In this document: in pieces, positions 8,473 through 24,407 of the stretch
Layout: the number at the start of each line of letters is the position of its first letter
Numbering within the stretch: position 1 is the stretch's first letter
From: Mariniphaga sediminis
GTDB lineage: Bacteria; Bacteroidota; Bacteroidia; Bacteroidales; Prolixibacteraceae
DNA length: 64,000 nucleotides
Direction: 5' to 3'
NCBI RefSeq assembly: GCF_003573545.1
Contig: NZ_QWET01000003.1
Coordinates: 310,001 to 374,000 of the forward strand
Program-made: the position numbers and the translations under genes
The notes under the pieces: model-generated
What the model was told of the DNA's origin: nothing
Databases searched by the model: none
What the model saw: only the letters and a program-made list of their open reading frames with translations

Positions 8473-10011
8473 ATGATTAAAACAACCTGTCTGTTACCTG
8501 CCCTCATTCTGTTTTTTGCCGCGTGTCAAAATCAACCAGGGAAGGAAACGGTGCGGCAAAAACCAAACATTATATACATTCTGGCTGATGACTTGGGATA
8601 TGCCGAATTGGGTTGTTACGGACAGGAAAAGATTGAAACGCCTCATATTGATGCGCTGGCTTCGGAGGGAATGCGTTTTACACAACATTATTCAAGCGCA
8701 CCTGTATGTGCTCCTGCGCGTTGTATGTTACTTACCGGTTTGCATGCCGGGCATGCCCAAATCAGAGGGAACGACGAATGGGCCGAACGGGGCGACGTAT
8801 GGGATTTTGAAGCGATGGCAAACGATCCGAACCTGGAAGGGCAGCGTCCGCTGAAACCAGGAACGCAAACCATCGGCACCTTACTGCAACAGGCAGGTTA
8901 CAGAACCGGTGTTGTGGGCAAATGGGGCCTCGGCGGACCACTCACCGAAGGCATCCCCAACAAGCAGGGATTCGACTTCTTTTATGGGTTTAATTGTCAG
9001 CGGCAGGCACATACTTATTTTCCGGTTCACCTGTGGAAAAATACTGAAAAGGTGCCACTCAATAATAGAATGGTGCCGCCGAGTACCGGACTTCCGGAGG
9101 GGGCTGATCCCCATAATCCTGCATCATACAGTGATTTTTGGCTTGAGGAGTATTCTCCTGAGTTGATGCAAAAGGAATTGATTCAGTTTATAAAAGAGAA
9201 CAAAAACCATCCGTTTTTTATGTATTATGCCAATCCGATTCCCCATGTTCCATTACAGGCGCCCAAACGCTGGGTGGACTACTACATGGAAAAGTTTGGT
9301 GATGAGGAGCCTTACACCGGTGATCAGGGATACTTCCCTCATCGTTATCCGCGTGCTTGTTATGCCGCCATGGTTTCCTATTTCGACGAGCAGGTGGGAG
9401 AAATTCTAGCGACGCTGAAAGAGCTGGGATTGTATGAAAATACAATTATCATGTTTTCTTCCGACAATGGCCCTACTTTTAATGGTGGAACCGATTCACC
9501 CTGGTTTGACAGTGCCAAACCCTTTAAAAGTGAGCAAGGGTGGGGGAAAGCCAATCTGATGGAGGGAGGGATACGCATCCCGATGATTGCCAACTGGCCC
9601 GGGGAAATTGAACCGGGTTCCCAAACAGATCTTATTTCTGCTCAATATGATGTGCTGCCTACCCTTTGTGAAATAGCAGGAATTGAACCTGCCGGTAATG
9701 TGGATGGTATCAGTTTCTTGCCAACCCTTTTGGGACAAGGCAACCAGGAAGAACACGGATTTTTATACTGGGAATTTCCGGCGTCGGGCGGGCAGCAGGC
9801 AATCCGAATGGGAAAATGGAAAGGCATCCGGAAAAATATTTTCCGAGACAGCCTGCGGGTTCGTCTTTACAATCTGGAAGAAGACATGCAGGAGTTGAAC
9901 GATGTTTCTGACTTGCACCCGGAGATCGTTCAAAAAATGGAAGCCATTTTTGTTCAGGAACATACACCGGCTGAATTGGAACGGTTTAAAATAAAGCAGT
10001 TGGGAGATTAG
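8473..10011 (+). CDS. Sulfatase lipoprotein (S1-type, formylglycine-dependent)
   Basis: The N-terminus MIKTTCLLPALILFFAAC is a lipoprotein signal (lipid Cys 18). The mature 494 residues form an alkaline-phosphatase-superfamily sulfatase: NIIYILADDLGYAELGCYG with metal ligands Asp39/Asp40, then CAPAR with Cys79 in the C-x-P-x-R formylglycine position, VVGKWGLGG, and a late SSDNGP metal site. It should remove sulfate esters from a substrate at the periplasm or cell surface, after Cys-to-formylglycine maturation by a radical-SAM enzyme that is not in this window. A second, divergent sulfatase lies at 16264, so two different sulfate positions may be attacked. Confidence 0.95.
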   Translation: MIKTTCLLPALILFFAACQNQPGKETVRQKPNIIYILADDLGYAELGCYGQEKIETPHIDALASEGMRFTQHYSSAPVCAPARCMLLTGLHAGHAQIRGNDEWAERGDVWDFEAMANDPNLEGQRPLKPGTQTIGTLLQQAGYRTGVVGKWGLGGPLTEGIPNKQGFDFFYGFNCQRQAHTYFPVHLWKNTEKVPLNNRMVPPSTGLPEGADPHNPASYSDFWLEEYSPELMQKELIQFIKENKNHPFFMYYANPIPHVPLQAPKRWVDYYMEKFGDEEPYTGDQGYFPHRYPRACYAAMVSYFDEQVGEILATLKELGLYENTIIMFSSDNGPTFNGGTDSPWFDSAKPFKSEQGWGKANLMEGGIRIPMIANWPGEIEPGSQTDLISAQYDVLPTLCEIAGIEPAGNVDGISFLPTLLGQGNQEEHGFLYWEFPASGGQQAIRMGKWKGIRKNIFRDSLRVRLYNLEEDMQELNDVSDLHPEIVQKMEAIFVQEHTPAELERFKIKQLGD

Positions 10012-10169
10012 AGGTTGTATTTAATCTATTAAAATTAGAAAGTTTCAATATAAGTCGGACCATTGGAAAAATTCGGTTTTAGCGGGATTTTTTTGTGACT
10101 GGTTCCCTGTCTGACTGTACAAGCTGGGCTGGCATGTTTAGAATTTTAAAAATGAATAATTATAAGAAC

Positions 10170-12656
10170 ATGAAACTTTCAGCATTATTCCTCCCTGTTA
10201 TATTCTTTCTAATAACCTCCTGCTCCCAAAAAACCGAGTTTTCGGCTAACTTCGATAATACGCACAACCGTATTTGGATAGGTAAAAACTTCTGGTCTGT
10301 TCCATTGGAAGACTGGAAAGTAGAAGAAGGCAAACTGCACTGTATTGGTACTGTTCCGGAGTCGCGGGTAAACCTGCTTACCCATGTACTATCGCCGGAA
10401 GAAGGAAATTTCAACCTGTCGGTAACGATTGGCCTCACAAAGGAAGGTAGTGCTGGGGGGTCTGCCGGATTTCTCGTTGGGATAGTCGACAAAGAAGATC
10501 CTGATATCAGGGCGGCATGCTATTTTGGAGAAGGAATAAAAGCCGGGGTCAACCTGGAAGGTTATGCCTTTTTACAAACGGAAAAAGTTGAGTTACCCGA
10601 GGGGTTCGATTTCAGCGAATTTAATATCTCTGTTGCCGGAAGTGGCAACAACCTAAAAATGAAGGTTATTGACAAAGCAGGAAACCATATAAAAGAACTT
10701 TCCCTTCCTGTGGAAGAAGAAATACAGGGTCTTGTTGCGGTTGTCAGTAACCTGAGGCCTGAAGGAAAAGAAAAATCTGGAAACTCCACGTTTTGCTTCG
10801 ATGATCTGAAATTGTCGGGTTCTAAAGTGGTTGCTCAACCTGACGAAGCTTTTGGCCCCGTTCTTTGGACCATGTACACTCTGAGTAAAGAGACGGTAAA
10901 AATGATGGCTTTATTGCCGCCAGTCGGAAAGGATGACAATCAGGAAGTAAGTCTTCAGTTAAAAGTAAGTGAAGAGTGGAAAACGGTTGCGACAGAAAAT
11001 ATTGATCCCGATTCCCGAACGGCCGTTTTCAAACTGCAAAACTGGGATGCTACAAAAGGTGTGAATTATCGTATTGAGTATATCGAGCGGGAAAAAGGCG
11101 GAGCCGAAACGCCGGAATATTATGCGGGAACCATTCGGAAAGATCCCGTAGATCGTCCTTTAAAATTTGGCGGGCTTACCTGCCAGTTTCATTTCGGATT
11201 CCCGTATTCGCCGTTGGTAGAAAACGTAACAAAGCTTGATCCCGATATCCTTTATTTTTCAGGAGACCAGATTTATGAAGGCAACGGTGGTTATCCAATA
11301 AAACGCGAACCGGCTGATGTTTCCATCGTCAATTACCTTGGTAAATATTATATGTTTGGGTGGGCATTTGGCGACCTGATGCGCGACAGGCCTACCATTT
11401 GTACACCTGATGATCACGATGTTTTTCATGGTAACTTATGGGGTGAAAGTGGAATTTCCAAACCGGGAGGAGCAGGTAGTTCAGATACACGTGGGTTTAT
11501 GCAATCGGTAAAAATGGTTAATGTTGTGAATCGTACCCAATGTGGGCAATTGCCAGATCCTTATGATGCATCACCTATTGAACAGGGAATGAGCGTTTGG
11601 TACACTGGTCTTACTTATGGGAGGGTGAGTTTTGCCATTATCAGCGATCGCATTTTTAAAACCGGCCCGGAGGCAGTTTCGGATTGGGAGGGGCGCCACG
11701 ACCATATGAAAGAGCCCCGGGAAGATTTGTCATTTTTGGATAAGCCGGGAGTAGAATTAATCGGTAAACGGCAGACTGAATTTCTTAATGACTGGATAAT
11801 GGACTGGGAACAAGCCGATATGAAAGTATTGCTTTCGCAAACGGTTTTTGCCAATGTCGCTACCCATCACGGTTCGTTGAGTAATTACCTGTATGGTGAC
11901 CTCGACTCAGGGGGCTGGCCAAAAGCAGACAGAGATAAGGCCATTCGTTTAATGCGTAAAGGGGCCGTTTTCCACATTAATGGCGACCAGCACGTTCCTT
12001 CTTTGCTGCAATATGGGCTTGAAAACTACCGTAGTGGCGGTTGGAGTTTTTGTACGCCTGCTATTGCTGTTATATACCTTCGCTGGTTTTTACCGGATGA
12101 ACTAGGTATATCGGTTGTTGACCGGCCTGAACATGGCTATCCCAACACCGGGAAATATGAAGACGCTTTTGGCAACAAAAACTATGTGTATGCCATTGGA
12201 AATCCCGGGAAAAACACAGTGGATAGGGATAGTCGTTACAATCACGCCCAAATCCGTTCATCAGGTTTTGGGTTTGTGACTTTTGACCAAAAGGAACGAA
12301 CCATTGTTGCTGACGCCTGGCGTTTCAAAGCCGATGTGGAGAATCCCAATCCTATGCGCGACCAATTTCCGGGGTGGCCTTTGGAAATTTCGCAATTCGA
12401 CAATCTGGGATTGGGGGCTGAAAATGTCCTGCCCGAAATTACCATTACCAAACCGAACCAGTTAATGCAGATTCGAAATGAGAAGACCGGCGAACTGGCA
12501 CAAATTTATCGTTTGAAAGGCAACATCATTCAACCTAAATTACATTCAAGCGGAACGTTCAGGGTTATTATCGGTGAAGATGGGAACCAAAAAGAGATTG
12601 CAGGACTGAAAACCCTAAAAGGAGAAAATCCAAAAGAGGTTCTGGTGGAACTTTAA
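10170..12656 (+). CDS. PhoD-like metallophosphoesterase lipoprotein
   Basis: The chosen ATG gives a lipoprotein signal MKLSALFLPVIFFLITSC (lipid Cys 18). An in-frame ATG at 10152 adds six residues. After an N-terminal beta-sandwich of about 220 residues (FSANFDNTHNRIWIGKNFW...) comes a fibronectin-like linker and then a PhoD-type (PF09423) phosphoesterase domain with the metal motifs LYFSGDQIYEG, CTPDDHDVFHGNLWGE and FHINGDQHVPSLLQYG. PhoD enzymes use Fe/Ca to hydrolyse phosphodiesters and monoesters outside the cytoplasm. At 828 residues it is longer than classical PhoD because of the N-terminal domain. It is probably part of the same catabolic set as the sulfatases, and the repeat array follows it directly. 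Confidence 0.9.
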   Translation: MKLSALFLPVIFFLITSCSQKTEFSANFDNTHNRIWIGKNFWSVPLEDWKVEEGKLHCIGTVPESRVNLLTHVLSPEEGNFNLSVTIGLTKEGSAGGSAGFLVGIVDKEDPDIRAACYFGEGIKAGVNLEGYAFLQTEKVELPEGFDFSEFNISVAGSGNNLKMKVIDKAGNHIKELSLPVEEEIQGLVAVVSNLRPEGKEKSGNSTFCFDDLKLSGSKVVAQPDEAFGPVLWTMYTLSKETVKMMALLPPVGKDDNQEVSLQLKVSEEWKTVATENIDPDSRTAVFKLQNWDATKGVNYRIEYIEREKGGAETPEYYAGTIRKDPVDRPLKFGGLTCQFHFGFPYSPLVENVTKLDPDILYFSGDQIYEGNGGYPIKREPADVSIVNYLGKYYMFGWAFGDLMRDRPTICTPDDHDVFHGNLWGESGISKPGGAGSSDTRGFMQSVKMVNVVNRTQCGQLPDPYDASPIEQGMSVWYTGLTYGRVSFAIISDRIFKTGPEAVSDWEGRHDHMKEPREDLSFLDKPGVELIGKRQTEFLNDWIMDWEQADMKVLLSQTVFANVATHHGSLSNYLYGDLDSGGWPKADRDKAIRLMRKGAVFHINGDQHVPSLLQYGLENYRSGGWSFCTPAIAVIYLRWFLPDELGISVVDRPEHGYPNTGKYEDAFGNKNYVYAIGNPGKNTVDRDSRYNHAQIRSSGFGFVTFDQKERTIVADAWRFKADVENPNPMRDQFPGWPLEISQFDNLGLGAENVLPEITITKPNQLMQIRNEKTGELAQIYRLKGNIIQPKLHSSGTFRVIIGEDGNQKEIAGLKTLKGENPKEVLVEL

Positions 12657-12668
12657 TGAAATAAGAAT

Positions 12669-12908
12669 CTGCGGAAATCAGTGTGTTCTGTGGGAGAATA
12701 AGGAGATAGTTCCCGCAGATTGCGCCGATAATCGCAGAAAAACTCAGTAATTTGGGACAAACCAGAAGTTTTAGATATGAAGGAGAATGATATTTTTTGC
12801 AAAATCAAACACGTTATTTTTTTGTGTCAAAGATACACTGGGACAGGAGGTTTAGGAATTAGTAGTAAATTATAGGAAAGTAAATAAATTTTGGTTTACC
12901 ATTGTACT
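12669..12908 (+). repeat. Array unit 1 (240 bp, deleted copy, A-type tail)
   Basis: The remnant start codon is at 12777. The tail ATAGGAAAGTAAATAAATTTTG still resembles the last codons of the intact gene (TACAGGAAAGTAAATAAACTTTAG). It shares its leader, with TTTGGGACAAACC, with unit 4. Confidence 0.85.
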
Positions 12909-13146
12909 CTGCGAAAATCTGCGTGTTCTGCGGGAGAATAAGGAGGAAGTTCCCACTGATTACGCCGATAATCGCAGAAAGACTCAATAACTTCAGAACA
13001 AACAAAAGTTTTTAGTTATGAAGGAGAACAATATTTTTTACAAAGTCAAAGGTGCTATTTTTAATGTTTAAAATTTACTGGTACCGGATTTATAGGAGTC
13101 AGCTTGTAAATTAGAGGGAAGAAATAATTTAGCCGGCCGTTTTACT
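12909..13146 (+). repeat. Array unit 2 (238 bp, deleted copy, B-type tail)
   Basis: The remnant start is at 13018. Apart from a few bases it is the same as unit 7 along its whole length, including the shared TTCCCACTGATTACGCC variant in the head and a premature TAA after AATGTT. Confidence 0.85.
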
Positions 13147-13646
13147 CTGCGCGAATCTGCGTGTTCTGCGGGAAAACAAAAAGAAAGTTCCCGCTGATTG
13201 CGCCGATAATCGCAGAAAGATTCAATAATTCGAGTTAAACTAAAACTTTCAGATATGACAGAGAATGAAATTTCTTATAAAATCAGGGGTGCTATTTTTA
13301 ACGTATACAATGCATTGGGGCCGGGTTTGTTGGAATCAGCTTATGAGGCTGTTTTAGCTTATGAACTGAACAAACAGGGACTGGATGTTAAAACACAAGT
13401 GCCTTTGCCATTGATTTATGAAGAGGTCAGGCTCGATGTGGGTTACCGGCTTGATATTCTTGTTGAAAATAAAGTTATTATTGAAATAAAATCTGTTGAA
13501 GCTATTTCTGAAGTGCATCACAAACAAGTGATTACTTATTTGAAATTATCAGACTTAAAATTAGGGTTGCTAGTCAATTTTAATTGCAATGACATTCAAA
13601 AATCAATATACAGGAAAGTAAATAAACTTTAGCCGGCCGTTTTACT
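13147..13646 (+). repeat. Array unit 3 (500 bp, full-length copy with intact gene)
   Basis: The head at 13147-13220 shares the variant GGGAAAACAAAAAGAAAGTTCCCG with unit 8. It holds the complete GxxExxY gene (13255-13632). The following AGCCGGCCGTTTTACT marks the unit end seen in B-type copies. Confidence 0.9.
13255..13632 (+). CDS. GxxExxY protein (PD-(D/E)XK nuclease-like)
   Basis: The 125-residue protein belongs to the GxxExxY family (TIGR04256, PDDEXK_3). The name-giving motif is GLLESAY at residues 24-30 (Gly24, Glu27, Tyr30). A PD-(D/E)XK-type core follows: Asp67 in YRLDILV and Glu77-x-Lys79 in IIEIKSV, with the later helix HHKQVITYLKL and strand LGLLVNFN. The biochemical role is not established; the motif pattern suggests a metal-dependent nuclease fold. 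It is the only undamaged copy among eight repeats, and its flanking hairpin head is shared with the deleted copies. The array-like setting suggests a selfish or repeat-maintaining element rather than a catabolic gene. No clear Shine-Dalgarno sequence precedes the ATG. Confidence 0.9.
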   Translation: MTENEISYKIRGAIFNVYNALGPGLLESAYEAVLAYELNKQGLDVKTQVPLPLIYEEVRLDVGYRLDILVENKVIIEIKSVEAISEVHHKQVITYLKLSDLKLGLLVNFNCNDIQKSIYRKVNKL

Positions 13647-13886
13647 CTGCGCGAATCTGTGTGTTTTGCGGGAGAATAGGAAGAAGGTTCCCGCAGATTG
13701 CGCCGATAATCGCAGAAAAACTCAGTAATTTGGGACAAACCAGAAGTTTTAGATATGAAGGGGAATGATATTTTTTGCAAAATCAGATACGTTATTTTTA
13801 ATGTTTACAATGTACAGGGATCGGATTTACGGGAATCAGCTTGCAAATTATAGGAAACTAAATAAATTTTGGTTTACCAATTTACT
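13647..13886 (+). repeat. Array unit 4 (240 bp, deleted copy, A-type tail)
   Basis: The remnant start is at 13755, encoding about 28 residues and ending LRESACKL-stop at the deletion junction. It shows the junction most clearly: codons up to SAC are joined to the AGGAAACTAAATAAA tail of the parent gene. Confidence 0.85.
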
Positions 13887-14124
13887 CTGCGCGAATCTGC
13901 GTGTTCTGCGGGAGAATAGGACGAAGGTTCCCGTAGATTGCGCCGATAATCGCAGAAAAGTTCAATAACTTCAGAACAAACAAAAGCTTTTAGTTATGAA
14001 GGAGAACAATATTTTTTACAAAATCGGAGGTGCTATTTTTAATGTTTACAATGTCTAGGGATCGGATTTACGGGAGTCAGCTTGTAAATTAGAGGGAAGA
14101 AATAATTTAGCCGGCCATTTTACT
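13887..14124 (+). repeat. Array unit 5 (238 bp, deleted copy, B-type tail)
   Basis: The remnant start is at 13996 with an early TAG after AATGTC. It is nearly the same as unit 6, sharing GGTTCCCGTAGATTGCGCC in the head. Confidence 0.85.
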
Positions 14125-14362
14125 CTGCGCGAATCTGCGTGTTCTGCGGGAGAATAGGAAGAAGGTTCCCGTAGATTGCGCCGATAATCGCAGAAAAATT
14201 CAATAACTTCAGAACAAACAAAAGCTTTTAGTTATGAAGGAGAACAATATTTTTTACAAAATCAGAGGTGCTATTTTTAATGATTACAATGTCCAGGGAT
14301 CGGATTTACGGGAGTCAGCTTGTAAATTAGAGGGAAGAAATAATTTAGCCGGCCATTTTACT
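14125..14362 (+). repeat. Array unit 6 (238 bp, deleted copy, B-type tail)
   Basis: The remnant start is at 14234. Its frame stays open across the junction (LRESACKLEGRNNLAGHF) and runs into the head of unit 7, giving about 51 codons. It is unlikely to be a functional protein. Confidence 0.85.
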
Positions 14363-14600
14363 CTGCGCGAATCTGCGTGTTCTGCGGGAGAATAAGGAGG
14401 AAGTTCCCACTGATTACGCCGATAATCGCAGAAAGACTCAATAACTTCAGAACAAACAAAAGTTTTTAGTTATGAAGGAGAACAATATTTTTTACAAAGT
14501 CAAAGGTGCTATTTTTAATGTTTAAAATTTACTGGTACCGGATTTATAGGAGTCAGCTTGTAAATTAGAGGGAAGAAATAATTTAGTCGGCCATTATACT
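14363..14600 (+). repeat. Array unit 7 (238 bp, deleted copy, near-duplicate of unit 2)
   Basis: The remnant start is at 14472. It matches unit 2 almost base for base through the ATTTACTGGTACCGGATT variant, implying a segmental copy of units 2-3 to positions 7-8. Confidence 0.85.
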
Positions 14601-14756
14601 CTGCGGAAATTTGCGTGTTCTGCGGGAAAACAAAAAGAAAGTTCCCGCTGATTGCGCCGATAATCGCAGAAAAGTTCAATAACTTCAGAACAAACAAAAG
14701 CTTTTAGTTATGAAGGAGAACAATATTTTTTACAAAATCAGAGGTGCTATTTTTAA
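14601..14756 (+). repeat. Array unit 8 (truncated, 156 bp)
   Basis: The head resembles that of unit 3. The remnant gene starts at 14710, and homology stops after GGTGCTATTTTTAAC, codon 15-16 of the parent gene. Unique DNA begins about 100 bp before the PHP-domain gene. Confidence 0.8.
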
Positions 14757-14853
14757 CTTGTTGGTAGTCAGTATTTCGAATGTTTTGATGGTTGCCCTGA
14801 ATTCATTGCATTTTCGTAAATTGCAGGTAAATACAATTAAAATTAATTGAAAA

Positions 14854-16179
14854 ATGGATAAGAAAGTTGTACGTTCCGTTAGTTCCGGTAGAAACAGTGT
14901 GCCGGCCAATAAAAAAAACCGTGGATATTTTTATCTGGTCTTCCTTTCTGTGATAATTATTGGATTGGCAGCAGGTTCCTGTAAGAATTCTGAGCCCAAC
15001 TGGTTGCGCGGAAATATGCACACCCACACTTTTTGGAGCGACGGAGATGAATTTCCGGAGAGTGTGGCTCGTTGGTACAAAGAAAACGGATATGATTTTC
15101 TTGCTATGACAGATCACAATACAATATTAGCAGGAGAGCGTTGGAAAAATTTCCCTGAGGACCATGCAACACTTCATAAATATGTGGAGGAATATGGGAC
15201 GGAGTGGGTAGAAATGCATTCTCATGAAGAAGAGGGAACCCAGCGTGTACGTTTGAAAACCCTGGAAGAGTTTCAGTCGATGTATGAAGAACCGGGAAAA
15301 TTTCTGCTTGTTATGGGCAATGAAATTTCCAATCCACATTCAGTTCATTTACTTGGATTCCATCAGGATAGGGTGATTCCAGCCATTCAGGGTACCGTGA
15401 ACGAGCGGGAGGAGATGATTCGGAGAACGGTTGAGAATATGAAAGCTTACCGGGAAGAAACCGGAATAAATGCTCATCCGGCGCTGGCTCATCCTAATTT
15501 CAGGTGGGCCATTACGGCTGAAATGATGCTGAATGTTCCTGAACTTCGTTTTTTCGAAGTTTTCAACGGTCACCCGATGGTAAATAATACGGGGGATGAA
15601 AGCCGGGCAAGTACCGATAGAATTTGGGATATTGTGTTAGCCAACCGACTGATATCCGGTGATGGAGAACTTCTTTATGGACTGGCTACAGACGATGCCC
15701 ACAATTATCACGGAGGTGGGGCCGGTCCTGGTAGAGGGTGGGTAATGGTGCGTTCAGAAGAACTTTCTCCGGAGGCCATTCTTGATGCCATAGACAAAGG
15801 CGACTTTTATGCTTCAACCGGTGTTAAACTAAAAGATATTCAGTTTAATGGGAAAAACCTGAAAATTAAAATCGAGCCACAGGAAGGCATTGAATTTACA
15901 ACGGAATTTATCGGTACACAGAAGGGTGTGGATACAACTGGTAAACCTACATTGGATGCGGAAGGCAATGAAATTGAAAATACCACGATGACCTATTCCG
16001 GAGAAATTGGAAAAGTACTTGCATCCAGTCAGTCATTAACCCCTTCGTATCGGTTTACCGGAGATGAGTTGTATGTGCGGATCCGGATCACTTCTTCGGC
16101 AGATCATATCGATCCAAATACAGGAAAATTGTTGGGGAAACAAAGAGCCTGGGTGCAACCGCACGTTCAGACAAACTAA
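14854..16179 (+). CDS. PHP-domain phosphoesterase-like lipoprotein
   Basis: A basic N-terminus of about 25 residues precedes a hydrophobic segment (YLVFLSVIIIGLAAGSC) ending in a lipobox with Cys43. The polymerase-and-histidinol-phosphatase (PHP) metal motifs follow: NMHTHTFWSDG (His56, His58, Asp63), AMTDHNTI (Asp87, His88), HPALAHPNFRW, and a late ATDDAHNYHG. A C-terminal beta-rich tail of about 120 residues (KDIQFNGKNLKIKIEP...) probably packs as a sandwich. Enzymes of this fold remove phosphate with a trinuclear metal centre. The secreted form beside sulfatases and a PhoD-like enzyme fits scavenging of a phosphorylated substrate. An internal ATG is less likely because the signal begins upstream. 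Confidence 0.9.
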   Translation: MDKKVVRSVSSGRNSVPANKKNRGYFYLVFLSVIIIGLAAGSCKNSEPNWLRGNMHTHTFWSDGDEFPESVARWYKENGYDFLAMTDHNTILAGERWKNFPEDHATLHKYVEEYGTEWVEMHSHEEEGTQRVRLKTLEEFQSMYEEPGKFLLVMGNEISNPHSVHLLGFHQDRVIPAIQGTVNEREEMIRRTVENMKAYREETGINAHPALAHPNFRWAITAEMMLNVPELRFFEVFNGHPMVNNTGDESRASTDRIWDIVLANRLISGDGELLYGLATDDAHNYHGGGAGPGRGWVMVRSEELSPEAILDAIDKGDFYASTGVKLKDIQFNGKNLKIKIEPQEGIEFTTEFIGTQKGVDTTGKPTLDAEGNEIENTTMTYSGEIGKVLASSQSLTPSYRFTGDELYVRIRITSSADHIDPNTGKLLGKQRAWVQPHVQTN

Positions 16180-16199
16180 AATTGGGTACTCCAATTTTT
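16178..16199 (+). terminator. Terminator-like hairpin overlapping the PHP gene stop
   Basis: AAAATTGG (16178-16185) pairs with CCAATTTT (16191-16198) across GTACT and ends in a short T run. The stem is short and AT-rich, so it may be weak. The next sulfatase gene starts 65 nt later. Confidence 0.5.
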
Positions 16200-16263
16200 G
16201 TGTTAAGACGGTTCATTTTCTCCGGGCGGCATTGAAATATTATCGACCTAAAAAAATAAAACG

Positions 16264-17736
16264 ATGAAGCCAATTATTTTTTCTGTACTGATTTTAATCG
16301 GAATGCTTTCGGGATGTTCTCCTGCCGAGCGATCAGATGAAAGGAAGCCATATCCCAATGTACTGTTCTTTTTTGCCGACGACCAGCGAGCCGATGCTTT
16401 GGGTTGCTCCGGGAATCCATACATTAAAACACCTAACATTGACCGGCTGGCTGAAACAGGTGTTCGTTTTTCGAATGCATATGTAATGGGCGGTCACCAT
16501 GGCGCTATTTGTGCACCCAGCCGGGCCATGCTCATGAGTGGGAAGAGTTTATTTCATGTTTACGATGTTCTGGAAGGAATAAAAACCATGCCCATACATT
16601 TTGCTGAACAAGGGTATGAAACGTTTGGAACCGGTAAATGGCACAATGGAAGCAGTAGTTTCGAGGCCTCTTTTCAGAAAGGGGAGAATGTTTTTATTGG
16701 CGGCATGAGCGATCACTTTCAGGTGCCGTTGCGTAGCCTTGGGAAAGATGGCATACTGACCGAACCTGTTGAAAAAGGATACTCAACTGATCTTTTTGCC
16801 GAAGCCGCTCTGGACTTTTTGCAAAAATATGCAGCCGGTAGCAGGGAGGCCCCGTTTTTTTGTTATGTCTCTTTTACCGCTCCCCACGATCCGCGTTCTC
16901 CCCGGGATGATTATATAGGCATGTACCCGGATGAAAACCTACCGCTGCCGGGAAATTTTAAGGGACTGCACCCTTTTGAATTTGATGATCTGAATATCAG
17001 GGATGAGACCCTTGCCCCGTGGCCGCGTTCTCCCCAAATTATCCGGGCTTCATTGGCCGATTACTATGCATTGATTACCCATTTGGACGAGCGAGTAGGC
17101 GGTATCATAGAGCAGCTCAAAAAATTGGAACTTTTTGAAAATACGATTATTGTTTATGCTGCAGACAACGGGCTGGCCATTGGAAGTCATGGATTGCTCG
17201 GAAAACAGAATTTGTACGAACACAGCACCAAAGTTCCTTTAATCATTTCCGGTCCGGGAATTCCGCATAACGAAACGACCGATGCGCTGGTTTACCTGTT
17301 TGACATTTATCCAACCCTTGCCACATTGTGTGGATTACCGGAACCGGAAGGGGTTGACGGCAAAGATTTGAGCCGGGTGATCCGGGGGGAAACAGAAAGT
17401 GTTCGAAATACAATATATACCGTTTACCGAAACACGGCAAGGGCAGTCCGCGACGATACATGGAAATTGATATGGTACCCACAAAGAAATTATAAACAGC
17501 TTTTTAATCTAAAAAACGATCCACTGGAACTTTTGAACCTGGTAACACATCCCGGCAGTCAGTCAAAAGCAGAGGAAATGATGGCATTGCTGGAAAAGTG
17601 GTATGCCGAAACTAACGATACAGCTACTTTATTCCCTGCGACTAATTTACCGCTGGAATATGATTACAAAAAGTTGCAACAGATTCCTGACCGGCATCAG
17701 CCGGAGTATGTGTTGAAAAGGTATTTTGGGAGATAG
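16264..17736 (+). CDS. Sulfatase lipoprotein, second divergent copy
   Basis: MKPIIFSVLILIGMLSGC is a lipoprotein signal (Cys18). The catalytic region has NVLFFFADDQRADALGCSG with Asp39/Asp40 and the strict C-x-P-S-R motif ICAPSRAMLMSG with formylglycine position Cys83, then GTGKWHNGS, FTAPHDPRSP and IIVYAADNGLAIGSHGLLGKQ. The DDQR/HGLLGKQ pattern is closer to iduronate- or choline-sulfatase-like members than to the first sulfatase of this locus, suggesting a different sulfate position or substrate. At 490 residues it is full length. It is the last gene of the accessory block; the next gene (rnhA) is on the opposite strand. Confidence 0.94.
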   Translation: MKPIIFSVLILIGMLSGCSPAERSDERKPYPNVLFFFADDQRADALGCSGNPYIKTPNIDRLAETGVRFSNAYVMGGHHGAICAPSRAMLMSGKSLFHVYDVLEGIKTMPIHFAEQGYETFGTGKWHNGSSSFEASFQKGENVFIGGMSDHFQVPLRSLGKDGILTEPVEKGYSTDLFAEAALDFLQKYAAGSREAPFFCYVSFTAPHDPRSPRDDYIGMYPDENLPLPGNFKGLHPFEFDDLNIRDETLAPWPRSPQIIRASLADYYALITHLDERVGGIIEQLKKLELFENTIIVYAADNGLAIGSHGLLGKQNLYEHSTKVPLIISGPGIPHNETTDALVYLFDIYPTLATLCGLPEPEGVDGKDLSRVIRGETESVRNTIYTVYRNTARAVRDDTWKLIWYPQRNYKQLFNLKNDPLELLNLVTHPGSQSKAEEMMALLEKWYAETNDTATLFPATNLPLEYDYKKLQQIPDRHQPEYVLKRYFGR

Positions 17737-17758
17737 CCGGGGAAATGCTTTGGCACTT

Positions 17759-18232
17759 TTATGTTGCTGATTCATTTGGCTGGTATCCTGTATCTTCTTT
17801 TAGTCCTGCACCCAGTGACGCTTCTACGGCCAGTTGGTCGCAGCGTTCGTTCAATGGATTGTTGGCGTGGCCTTTAACCCATACAAAACTCACATCATGG
17901 TTTTTATATATTTCGAGAAAACGTAACCACAGGTCGGGATTTTTTTTCCCTTTAAAGCGTTTTTTTACCCAGTTAAAAACCCAGCCTTTTGTCACTGCGT
18001 CAGCTACATATTTTGAGTCAGTATAAATGGTGACTTTGCTTCCCGGTATTTTTAACGTTTCAAGTGCCACAATCACAGCCAGGAGTTCCATCCTGTTGTT
18101 GGTGGTGAGCCGGTAGCCTTCTGAGAGCTCTTTGCGGTACTGTCCGGAAAGAAGCACTATTCCGTAACCTCCCGGACCGGGGTTGCCGCGGGCTGCGCCG
18201 TCAGTATAAATTGTTATTTTGGGTTGAGTCAT
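17759..18232 (-). CDS. rnhA: Ribonuclease HI
   Basis: This enzyme cuts the RNA strand of RNA:DNA hybrids in the cytoplasm. The start MTQPKITIYTDGAARGNPGP at 18232 gives the normal size of 157 residues. An upstream in-frame ATG at 18280 would add 16 hydrophobic residues that are not part of the family. The four catalytic carboxylates are visible in IYTDGAARGNPGPGGYG, NNRMELLAVIVAL, IYTDSKYVADAV and the later NERCDQLA. The handle region GWVFNWVKKRFKGKKNPDLW is present as in E. coli-type RNase HI. It stands 3' to 3' with the second sulfatase, and its promoter is near the terminator of the S46 peptidase gene. Confidence 0.97.
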   Translation of the reverse strand: MTQPKITIYTDGAARGNPGPGGYGIVLLSGQYRKELSEGYRLTTNNRMELLAVIVALETLKIPGSKVTIYTDSKYVADAVTKGWVFNWVKKRFKGKKNPDLWLRFLEIYKNHDVSFVWVKGHANNPLNERCDQLAVEASLGAGLKEDTGYQPNESAT

Positions 18233-24071: not shown

Positions 24072-24272
24072 ATGAATTTATTTGTAATTGCAGGATTTAT
24101 CGGACCACAGGAAATAATTATCATTTTAATTATAGTACTTCTCCTTTTTGGCGGACGTAAAATTCCCGAATTGATGAAAGGCCTCGGTAAAGGAATGAAA
24201 GAGTTCAAGAAGGCTACAAAAGAGGGCGAAGACGAAAGCGAAAAGGCTGAGCCGGAGAAAATTGAAAAATAA
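24072..24272 (+). CDS. tatA: Sec-independent protein translocase subunit TatA/TatE
   Basis: A 66-residue protein with an N-terminal membrane helix ([26 protein letters not shown]), the conserved Phe-Gly hinge, the amphipathic helix [21 protein letters not shown] and a charged tail. This is the minimal TatA architecture, the subunit that forms the pore for folded proteins carrying a twin-arginine signal. TatC is not in the window. It lies downstream of rseP and before a strong terminator. Confidence 0.95.
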
Positions 24273-24291
24273 TTTGATTCGGTATATCCCG

Positions 24292-24329
24292 AAAATCCCG
24301 TTGTTGTATTTTGCAGCAGCGGGATTTTT
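24292..24329 (+). terminator. Rho-independent terminator after tatA
   Basis: AAATCCCGTTGTTG (24293-24306) pairs with CAGCAGCGGGATTT (24314-24327), with G-U pairs, and ends in a T run. Confidence 0.8.
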
Positions 24330-24407
24330 GTGTTATACCAATTTAATTTACACATTCCCAAACTGGTAAGATTTTTGTAGCAAAATTGGCGAACCAAAAA
24401 ATGACAA

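Follow-up and report, generated by a model that had tools for sequence, protein, structure and literature searches.

What does a small gene have to do with the inverted repeats around it, when both recur side by side in damaged copies? The question is raised by the window analyzed here, a stretch of 64,000 nucleotides from Mariniphaga sediminis (contig NZ_QWET01000003.1, positions 310,001 to 374,000), in which a tandem array is built around one intact gene of the GxxExxY family. A reading made from the letters alone (the sequence-only reading) took the short units of the array for nonautonomous derivatives of the gene-bearing unit, comparable to miniature inverted-repeat transposable elements (MITEs) or to repetitive extragenic palindromic (REP) sequences and their REP-associated tyrosine transposases (RAYTs). 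The association between GxxExxY genes and hairpins is well supported in the present sample. Beyond this association, the chances are about even that GxxExxY genes make up a genetic system of two parts with palindromes composed of CRCARAG-like words (R = A or G); the action of the protein on the words is our inference. The array, taken alone, is best explained by local duplication of a single element, followed by decay.

Repeated-Word Arms around GxxExxY Genes

Heads of the kind seen in the array accompany GxxExxY genes in numerous genomes from several phyla, as the sequence-only reading implied. The genome of M. sediminis contains three other GxxExxY loci, two full and one deleted, each placed between arms of repeated words that differ by locus. 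Most GxxExxY loci of same-genus relatives, judged by eye, also lie between such arms. A set of 80 named loci covers several phyla; 75 of them could be used for a comparison of the upstream flank with the reverse-complemented downstream flank (5 were unusable), and the match shows a median of 16.5 for a locus's own flanks, compared to 9.0 for swapped flanks. Inverted or direct matches above the 95th percentile of neighboring genes occur at 63/75 GxxExxY loci, compared to 20/266 neighbor genes; three of the top-scoring control genes look, by eye, like four-helix-bundle genes. A second sample consists of 30 GxxExxY loci (28/30 usable), drawn from many matches in 118 genomes belonging to the window's phylum (Bacteroidota), and of 30 four-helix-bundle loci (29/30 usable), likewise drawn from many matches in 80 genomes of the phylum. 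Here, the flanks match in 22/28 GxxExxY loci versus 10% of swaps. The two arms of a locus correspond in inverted orientation, in direct orientation, or in both. Two or more words from a small lexicon occur within 200 bp at 105/113 GxxExxY loci, compared to 15/214 control windows, and CRCARAG or variants of it by one to two bases cover many of the words (CGCAAAG, CACAAAG, CGCAGAG, CACAGAG, CGCAGAT, and CACAGAT).

The words of GxxExxY arms are not rigidly spaced. Periodicity at a rigid lag is found in 15/148 GxxExxY flanks and 7/296 distant windows, compared to 33/58 flanks of four-helix-bundle genes, the latter being those above the 99% null. Four-helix-bundle genes (TIGR02436) occur in 60/80 genomes of the phylum. 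Their arms (L182-L211; L043, L044, L053-L057, and L059) consist of inverted, near-tandem, locus-specific words of 7 to 8 bases, and the inverted match of their own flanks has a median of 12.5 versus 8.0 for swapped flanks.

Arms of this kind could also function at the RNA level, like the intervening sequence (IVS) of 23S rRNA: the arms would pair in the operon transcript and enclose the gene in a loop, to be excised by RNase III. The Coxiella IVS is described with terminal inverted repeats that form a 28-bp stem and with an RNase III cut (PMC4990558). Several features of GxxExxY loci agree with this model. At six Flavobacterium-type loci of one slot, the arms are long and in register, and the RNA duplexes predicted for them, with no shuffled control, have energies between -50 and -77 kcal/mol. 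The genes sit in tight junctions, and relatives carry a four-helix-bundle (IVS-type) open reading frame (ORF) in the mutA-mutB slot. Between flanking gene pairs on one strand, GxxExxY genes are codirectional in 46/47 and 29/30 cases. Orientation was nevertheless dropped as evidence of mechanism: the ratio of 46 to 1 stands against 78 to 7 in a background of gene triples, and with 78/85 triples codirectional, it is not clearly above background. Mismatches in GxxExxY arms are of the G-U type in 87 cases and of the A-C type in 104 (p = 0.25), with 22 versus 19 in four-helix-bundle arms; an excess of G-U pairs is absent from both, which speaks against selection for an RNA stem in the arms of either kind. 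In addition, an RNA-level element does not predict gene-less hairpins dispersed in trans. An RNA-level element of the IVS kind is unlikely.

Gene-Less Hairpins Dispersed in the Genome

The pattern CRCARAG-N(1-4)-CRCARAG was used to count pairs of words, with the reversed pattern as the control. The genome of M. sediminis shows 53 matches (reversed pattern, 1), 52 of which lie more than 2 kb from its four GxxExxY loci. These 53 matches form 13 clusters, 12 of them gene-less, and 7 of the gene-less clusters contain several matches. No relic of a GxxExxY or four-helix-bundle gene is found up to an E value of 0.1 in the 11 stretches covering the 12 gene-less clusters, apart from one match of 21 residues (E = 0.018). 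Dispersed units at different places in this genome are ∼67 to 90% alike. Two same-genus genomes with GxxExxY contain 14 and 7 matches (controls, 1 and 0), compared to 2 matches in one without the gene (control, 1).

The same association holds across the 118 genomes, half of which (59/118) contain GxxExxY. The 59 genomes with the gene hold 1346 matches (median, 9) and the 59 without it hold 104 (median, 1; p = 6e-12), compared to 82 and 67 matches, respectively, for the reversed pattern (p = 0.99). The gene-less group comprises 20 named genomes and 39 counted ones, every other surveyed genome being taken as lacking the gene. Gene and pattern are also associated within families (permutation p = 5e-5; 85 genomes in mixed families), and a regression over 80 genomes gives a t value of 7.2 for GxxExxY and 0.9 for four-helix-bundle genes. 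Proximity to the genes accounts for an expected ∼222 of the 1346 matches, based on 1.2 matches per gene within 500 bp in 30 loci and 185 genes. The 30 four-helix-bundle loci contain 0 two-word matches.

Nineteen dispersed places, chosen by eye among the matches listed with a preference for those on both strands, show the form of these repeats; one place lies in the gene-less genome G146. The 19 places contain no protein relics. The polarity of the gene arms is found in 13 of 16 close turns, and the three opposite turns sit in one tandem array. Not all of the places are hairpins, as L294, L296, L300, L302, and L303 carry the words on one strand and L305 is a one-strand array.

Some dispersed places have a more elaborate organization. 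The gene-less units L272-L279 of M. sediminis (C7, C12, C19, C45, C56, C26, and C29), several of them in tandem with a unit length of about 204 to 257 bp, show outer CACAGAG words and, in those read, inner AATATCC-like words, which reads as two nested word systems. In G146, which has no GxxExxY match over the cutoff, L304 (G146:C70:33400-34600) is a tandem array of CACAAAG/CTCTGTG hairpins.

Word Type and the Protein Tree

Word type changes in step with the protein sequence, as shown by a protein tree of 113 rows. This tree requires 33 changes of word class, compared to a mean of 64.1 for shuffled labels, and none of 200 shuffles is as low. Removal of shared-slot and wordless rows leaves 87 rows with 26 changes versus 50.4, again with 0/200 shuffles as low. 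All 14 rows of the TCTGCG class, to which the window belongs, fall within one supported set of 24 rows; the nearest rows are those of Sphingobacteriaceae, Cyclobacteriaceae, Flavobacteriaceae, and Bacteroidales. Resolution in this tree is poor, and three minor labels (none, CTCTGCG, and TCGTG) are unclustered.

Structure and Growth of the Array

The array occupies positions 12666..14756 on the forward strand, where all its parts lie, and begins 10 bp beyond the stop codon of the upstream ORF (10095-12656); the downstream ORF (14854) follows the array at a distance of ∼100 bp, and both ORFs are codirectional with it. Tandem Repeats Finder reports a single array at 12668-14756 with a period of 238 and a score of 1762 (threshold, 50). 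The eight direct units described by the sequence-only reading are exact in their starts and periods (240, 238, 500, 240, 238, 238, and 238, with the last unit cut), and an ATG follows each start by 108 to 109 bp, at 12777, 13018, 13255, 13755, 13996, 14234, 14472, and 14710. The composition of one intact GxxExxY gene, six internally deleted copies, and one truncated copy is likewise borne out. Unit 3 (13147..13646) holds the intact gene (13255..13632), which encodes a PD-(D/E)XK protein of 125 amino acids. The gene-bearing element is arranged in the order left arm (13188..13216; TTCCCGC..CGCAGA words), 38 bp, gene, and right arm (13646..13673; TCTGCG..GCGGGA), the latter being the inverted partner of the left arm. 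The nested inverted-repeat head proposed for each unit does have inverted arms; it is really a junction, composed of a right arm, a joint of ∼14 bp, and the next left arm.

A single deletion junction, located after about codons 29 to 31, is common to the six complete short units, which retain approximately the last eight codons. Unit 1 (12669..12908) contains a frameshifted remnant; unit 4 (13647..13886) is closest to it. Units 2 (12909..13146) and 7 (14363..14600) are nearly identical and carry two in-frame stops each, and unit 5 (13887..14124) carries one; in all three, stops precede the deletion junction. The remnant frame of unit 6 (14125..14362) is still open (53 amino acids), and unit 8 (14601..14756) is cut off. 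Differences among five remnants (units 2 and 4 to 7, leaving out units 1 and 8) are distributed as 40/44/24 over codon positions 1/2/3; this lack of a third-position excess fits the expectation for pseudogene copies without coding constraint. The intact gene and the remnants differ by 20/37/53, with a third-position excess. Later duplications relate the units to one another: units 2 and 7 show 2/108 differences in the head and 0/87 in the N-terminal part, compared to 2/108 and 3/87 for units 5 and 6 and 9/108 and 20/86 for units 1 and 4. The head of unit 8 is a mosaic, with one part like that of unit 3 and the other like those of units 5 and 6. The near-identical unit pairs and the mosaic last head therefore indicate growth of the array by repeated exchange between units.

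A query with the 240-bp unit, head included, finds matches only within the array in the 5.83-Mb assembly, with nothing beyond 19 to 38 bp elsewhere. The view of the short units as dispersed, MITE-like derivatives thus fails for the window, and mobile short units were rejected there on this search of the unit's own genome. For a unit absent elsewhere, the sequence-only reading had itself named local tandem duplication with decay as the outcome. In such a history, one element would have been duplicated in tandem, probably as its direct-repeated junctions recombined with each other; ∼260 bp would then have been lost from the gene of one copy, and the short form, once amplified, would now be decaying. 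An empty-site reading of the window locus was discarded, as G003, the sole same-genus genome with the downstream gene, carries other DNA upstream.

These observations also suit an account in which both array and arms arise from local duplication and template switching in imperfect palindromes and the protein has no role. The confinement of the unit to the array, the decay of the remnants, and the mosaic units are all in line with it, and symmetric arm mismatches are what correction at the DNA level would yield. Left unexplained by this account are the palindromes going with GxxExxY and not with four-helix-bundle genes and the word type tracking the protein tree, and a protein without a role is improbable.

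No Rfam match up to an E value of 1 is found in the window at 10000-18000. Farther downstream, the window contains an imperfect inverted repeat of 37 bp around a loop of 7 bp (24270-24350), which is not of the word type.

The GxxExxY Protein

The intact ORF is a GxxExxY protein, as the sequence-only reading had stated, with 146 bits for TIGR04256 (cutoff, 35) and 142.3 bits for PF13366 (PDDEXK_3; cutoff, 22), the latter being the sole Pfam family over the cutoff. The proposed PD-(D/E)XK-like motif is confirmed by Asp67, Glu77, and Lys79, which are invariant in 10 sequences. In an alignment of 53 sequences, Glu77 and Lys79 remain invariant, and Asp67 is present in at least 90%. The conservation of these three residues makes the protein a likely active enzyme. 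A structure model based on the 53 sequences has a predicted local distance difference test (pLDDT) value of 96.6. The closest solved fold is that of 4ic1 (SSO0001), a Cas4 protein (E = 5.6e-4; template modeling score of 0.55 by query), followed by lambda exonuclease (E = 6e-3). The fold is thus like that of Cas4/RecB-like PD-(D/E)XK nucleases, but the window protein has just 125 residues, compared to ∼200 in 4ic1. Closer than the solved structures are two entries of a viral library, G8DDC4 (E = 5e-9) and the PD-(D/E)XK nuclease of Halogranum tailed virus 1 (E = 1e-7). A profile search of the Protein Data Bank gives no match to the window protein, and PHROGs gives weak matches alone (best E, 0.003). 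In three genomes of one genus (G065:C9:91044, G093:C1:72354, and G077:C22:338277), a GxxExxY match lies within an open frame of 883 residues, a possible fusion.

Slots Shared with Other Inserts

GxxExxY elements occupy gene junctions that contain other inserts or nothing in relatives. M. sediminis has a GxxExxY gene between mutA and mutB, where 8 of the 24 genomes listed (G002, G003, G016, G005, G023, G020, G018, and G006) have, by eye, a four-helix-bundle-like ORF accompanied by repeated words of its own. The remaining listed genomes have short spacers of up to 144 bp (12 bp in the same-genus genome G001); in this survey, the stop of G007 was misread by the script. At L050 (G019), the short mutA-mutB spacer contains the first codons of a four-helix-bundle gene that is apparently internally deleted, parallel to the deleted GxxExxY copies. 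The slot between an aminotransferase and an acyltransferase gene holds GxxExxY genes in G000 and G002, whose words differ (the copy of G002 contains a stop), and 59 bp only in G001. G003 carries a GxxExxY copy in this slot (L215) with an internal deletion of its own, whose junction is unlike that of the window and possibly lies between short direct repeats. The hisB-purU slot contains a deleted GxxExxY copy between direct repeats in M. sediminis and a gene-less palindrome in G006; in G002, G001, and G007, the two genes overlap or adjoin, with spacers of -4, +1, and -1. The 287-bp spacer of G004 in this slot (L232) is filled by a gene-less run of GACTCCA/GATTC words with no visible inverted partner.

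This patchy presence, together with inverted arms at both ends and gene-less short forms, resembles an ordinary transposon with terminal inverted repeats and GxxExxY as its transposase. The closest proteins, at 73, 70, 69, and 69% identity, point in the same direction: their source organisms belong to different orders, and the best match within the window's own genus reaches 52%. Against a transposon, the array remnants are the only close copies of the gene in M. sediminis (its two other full GxxExxY genes show 43% identity), and the genes are codirectional with their neighbors. No target-site duplication is seen, the empty slots of relatives being too diverged to read one. Six pairs of GxxExxY orthologues show ratios of nonsynonymous to synonymous change (pN/pS) of 0.03 to 0.13, indicating strong purifying selection, and the window protein as the query matches 0/50,697 phage records and 8/72,556 plasmid records. 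Strong purifying selection, the absence from phages, and the scarcity on plasmids are not like a freely moving element, and a transposase function for GxxExxY has a small chance of being correct.

A Possible Two-Part System

In the proposed two-part system of GxxExxY genes and CRCARAG-like palindromes, a minimal Cas4/RecB-like PD-(D/E)XK nuclease would recognize the words or hairpins and nick or process them. Host repair or replication would then copy or maintain the hairpins, in the fashion proposed for RAYTs and REP sequences. A wider form of this proposal is possible but doubtful: GxxExxY would be a second counterpart of REP-RAYT with an unrelated enzyme, in which a PD-(D/E)XK family reads a degenerate code of words (CRCARAG and variants) and sustains hairpins in trans, with clade-specific dialects, and four-helix-bundle (S23) genes would run a parallel system, both competing for gene junctions.

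A number of observations weigh against the two-part system. The signs of low mobility given above (purifying selection, the phage and plasmid counts, and the lack of a visible target-site duplication) belong among them. The lexicon and the two-word pattern were picked after the gene flanks had been viewed. Arms swapped within the same slot match nearly as well as the own arms, which are better in 74 and worse in 32 of 116 comparisons. Fewer than five matches are found in 22/59 genomes with the gene (G085 has five genes and two matches), and the 32 matches of G094 are accompanied by 15 of the reversed pattern. Three gene-less genomes (G084, G146, and G063) contain 9 to 12 matches with no PF13366 match over the cutoff. 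For the TCTGCG word class of the window, the query with the 240-bp unit, the sole search made, found no dispersed copies. The association by itself gives neither direction nor action.

Comparison with Known Systems

By analogy, REPtrons and TIRtrons are the nearest known arrangement. Like the GxxExxY loci, they combine a small nuclease gene with palindromes or inverted repeats on its flanks and with gene-less relatives dispersed in the genome (PMC3733652). The GxxExxY loci have the feature typical of REP-RAYT, a gene flanked by palindromes of a dispersed type whose presence goes with the gene. The REP/RAYT likeness drawn by the sequence-only reading stands in part: gene-less hairpins that follow this grammar with words of other classes are scattered, often in tandem, through many gene-bearing genomes and are rare in genomes without the gene, and the enzyme is unrelated. 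Flanking heads in many genomes and dispersed gene-less hairpins therefore make the comparison apt in general, and a REP-RAYT-like mode of working is moderately supported. RAYTs are kept by vertical inheritance. The differences concern the enzyme, which is a PD-(D/E)XK protein in contrast to the HUH/Y1 tyrosine transposase of RAYTs; the lack of a constant GTAG tag, with GTAG/CTAC within 15 nucleotides of the end in 3/19 dispersed places; and the arms, which are built of repeated 7-base words. As the enzyme is not of the HUH/Y1 type and no constant GTAG tag is present, the GxxExxY system is not a member of the REPtrons or TIRtrons.

MITEs and insertion sequences are recognized by the same ends dispersed in a genome; the unit of the window is confined to its array, and the dispersed hairpins belong to other word classes. 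The 23S rRNA IVS (PMC4990558) shares a short element with complementary ends and a small ORF (S23/four-helix bundle) in the loop. It resembles the GxxExxY element in plan only: the array of the window lies between long protein-coding ORFs and not inside 23S rRNA, and the GxxExxY element carries a nuclease-like gene, lacks an RNA wobble signature, and has dispersed gene-less forms. According to PMC10053308, PF05635 proteins resemble Avd of diversity-generating retroelements.

The partnership of gene and repeat itself is apparently undescribed. The open-licence literature mentions the name GxxExxY very rarely, and neither the flanks of GxxExxY genes nor repeats of this class were found described there, which is no proof of absence. 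GxxExxY is a common family for which no assigned role was found, and its link to a defined class of genomic hairpins offers a testable one and opens the turnover of hairpin repeats to experiment. Confirmation would mean that a partnership between a nuclease and dispersed palindromes has arisen on the basis of a fold with no relation to that of RAYTs.

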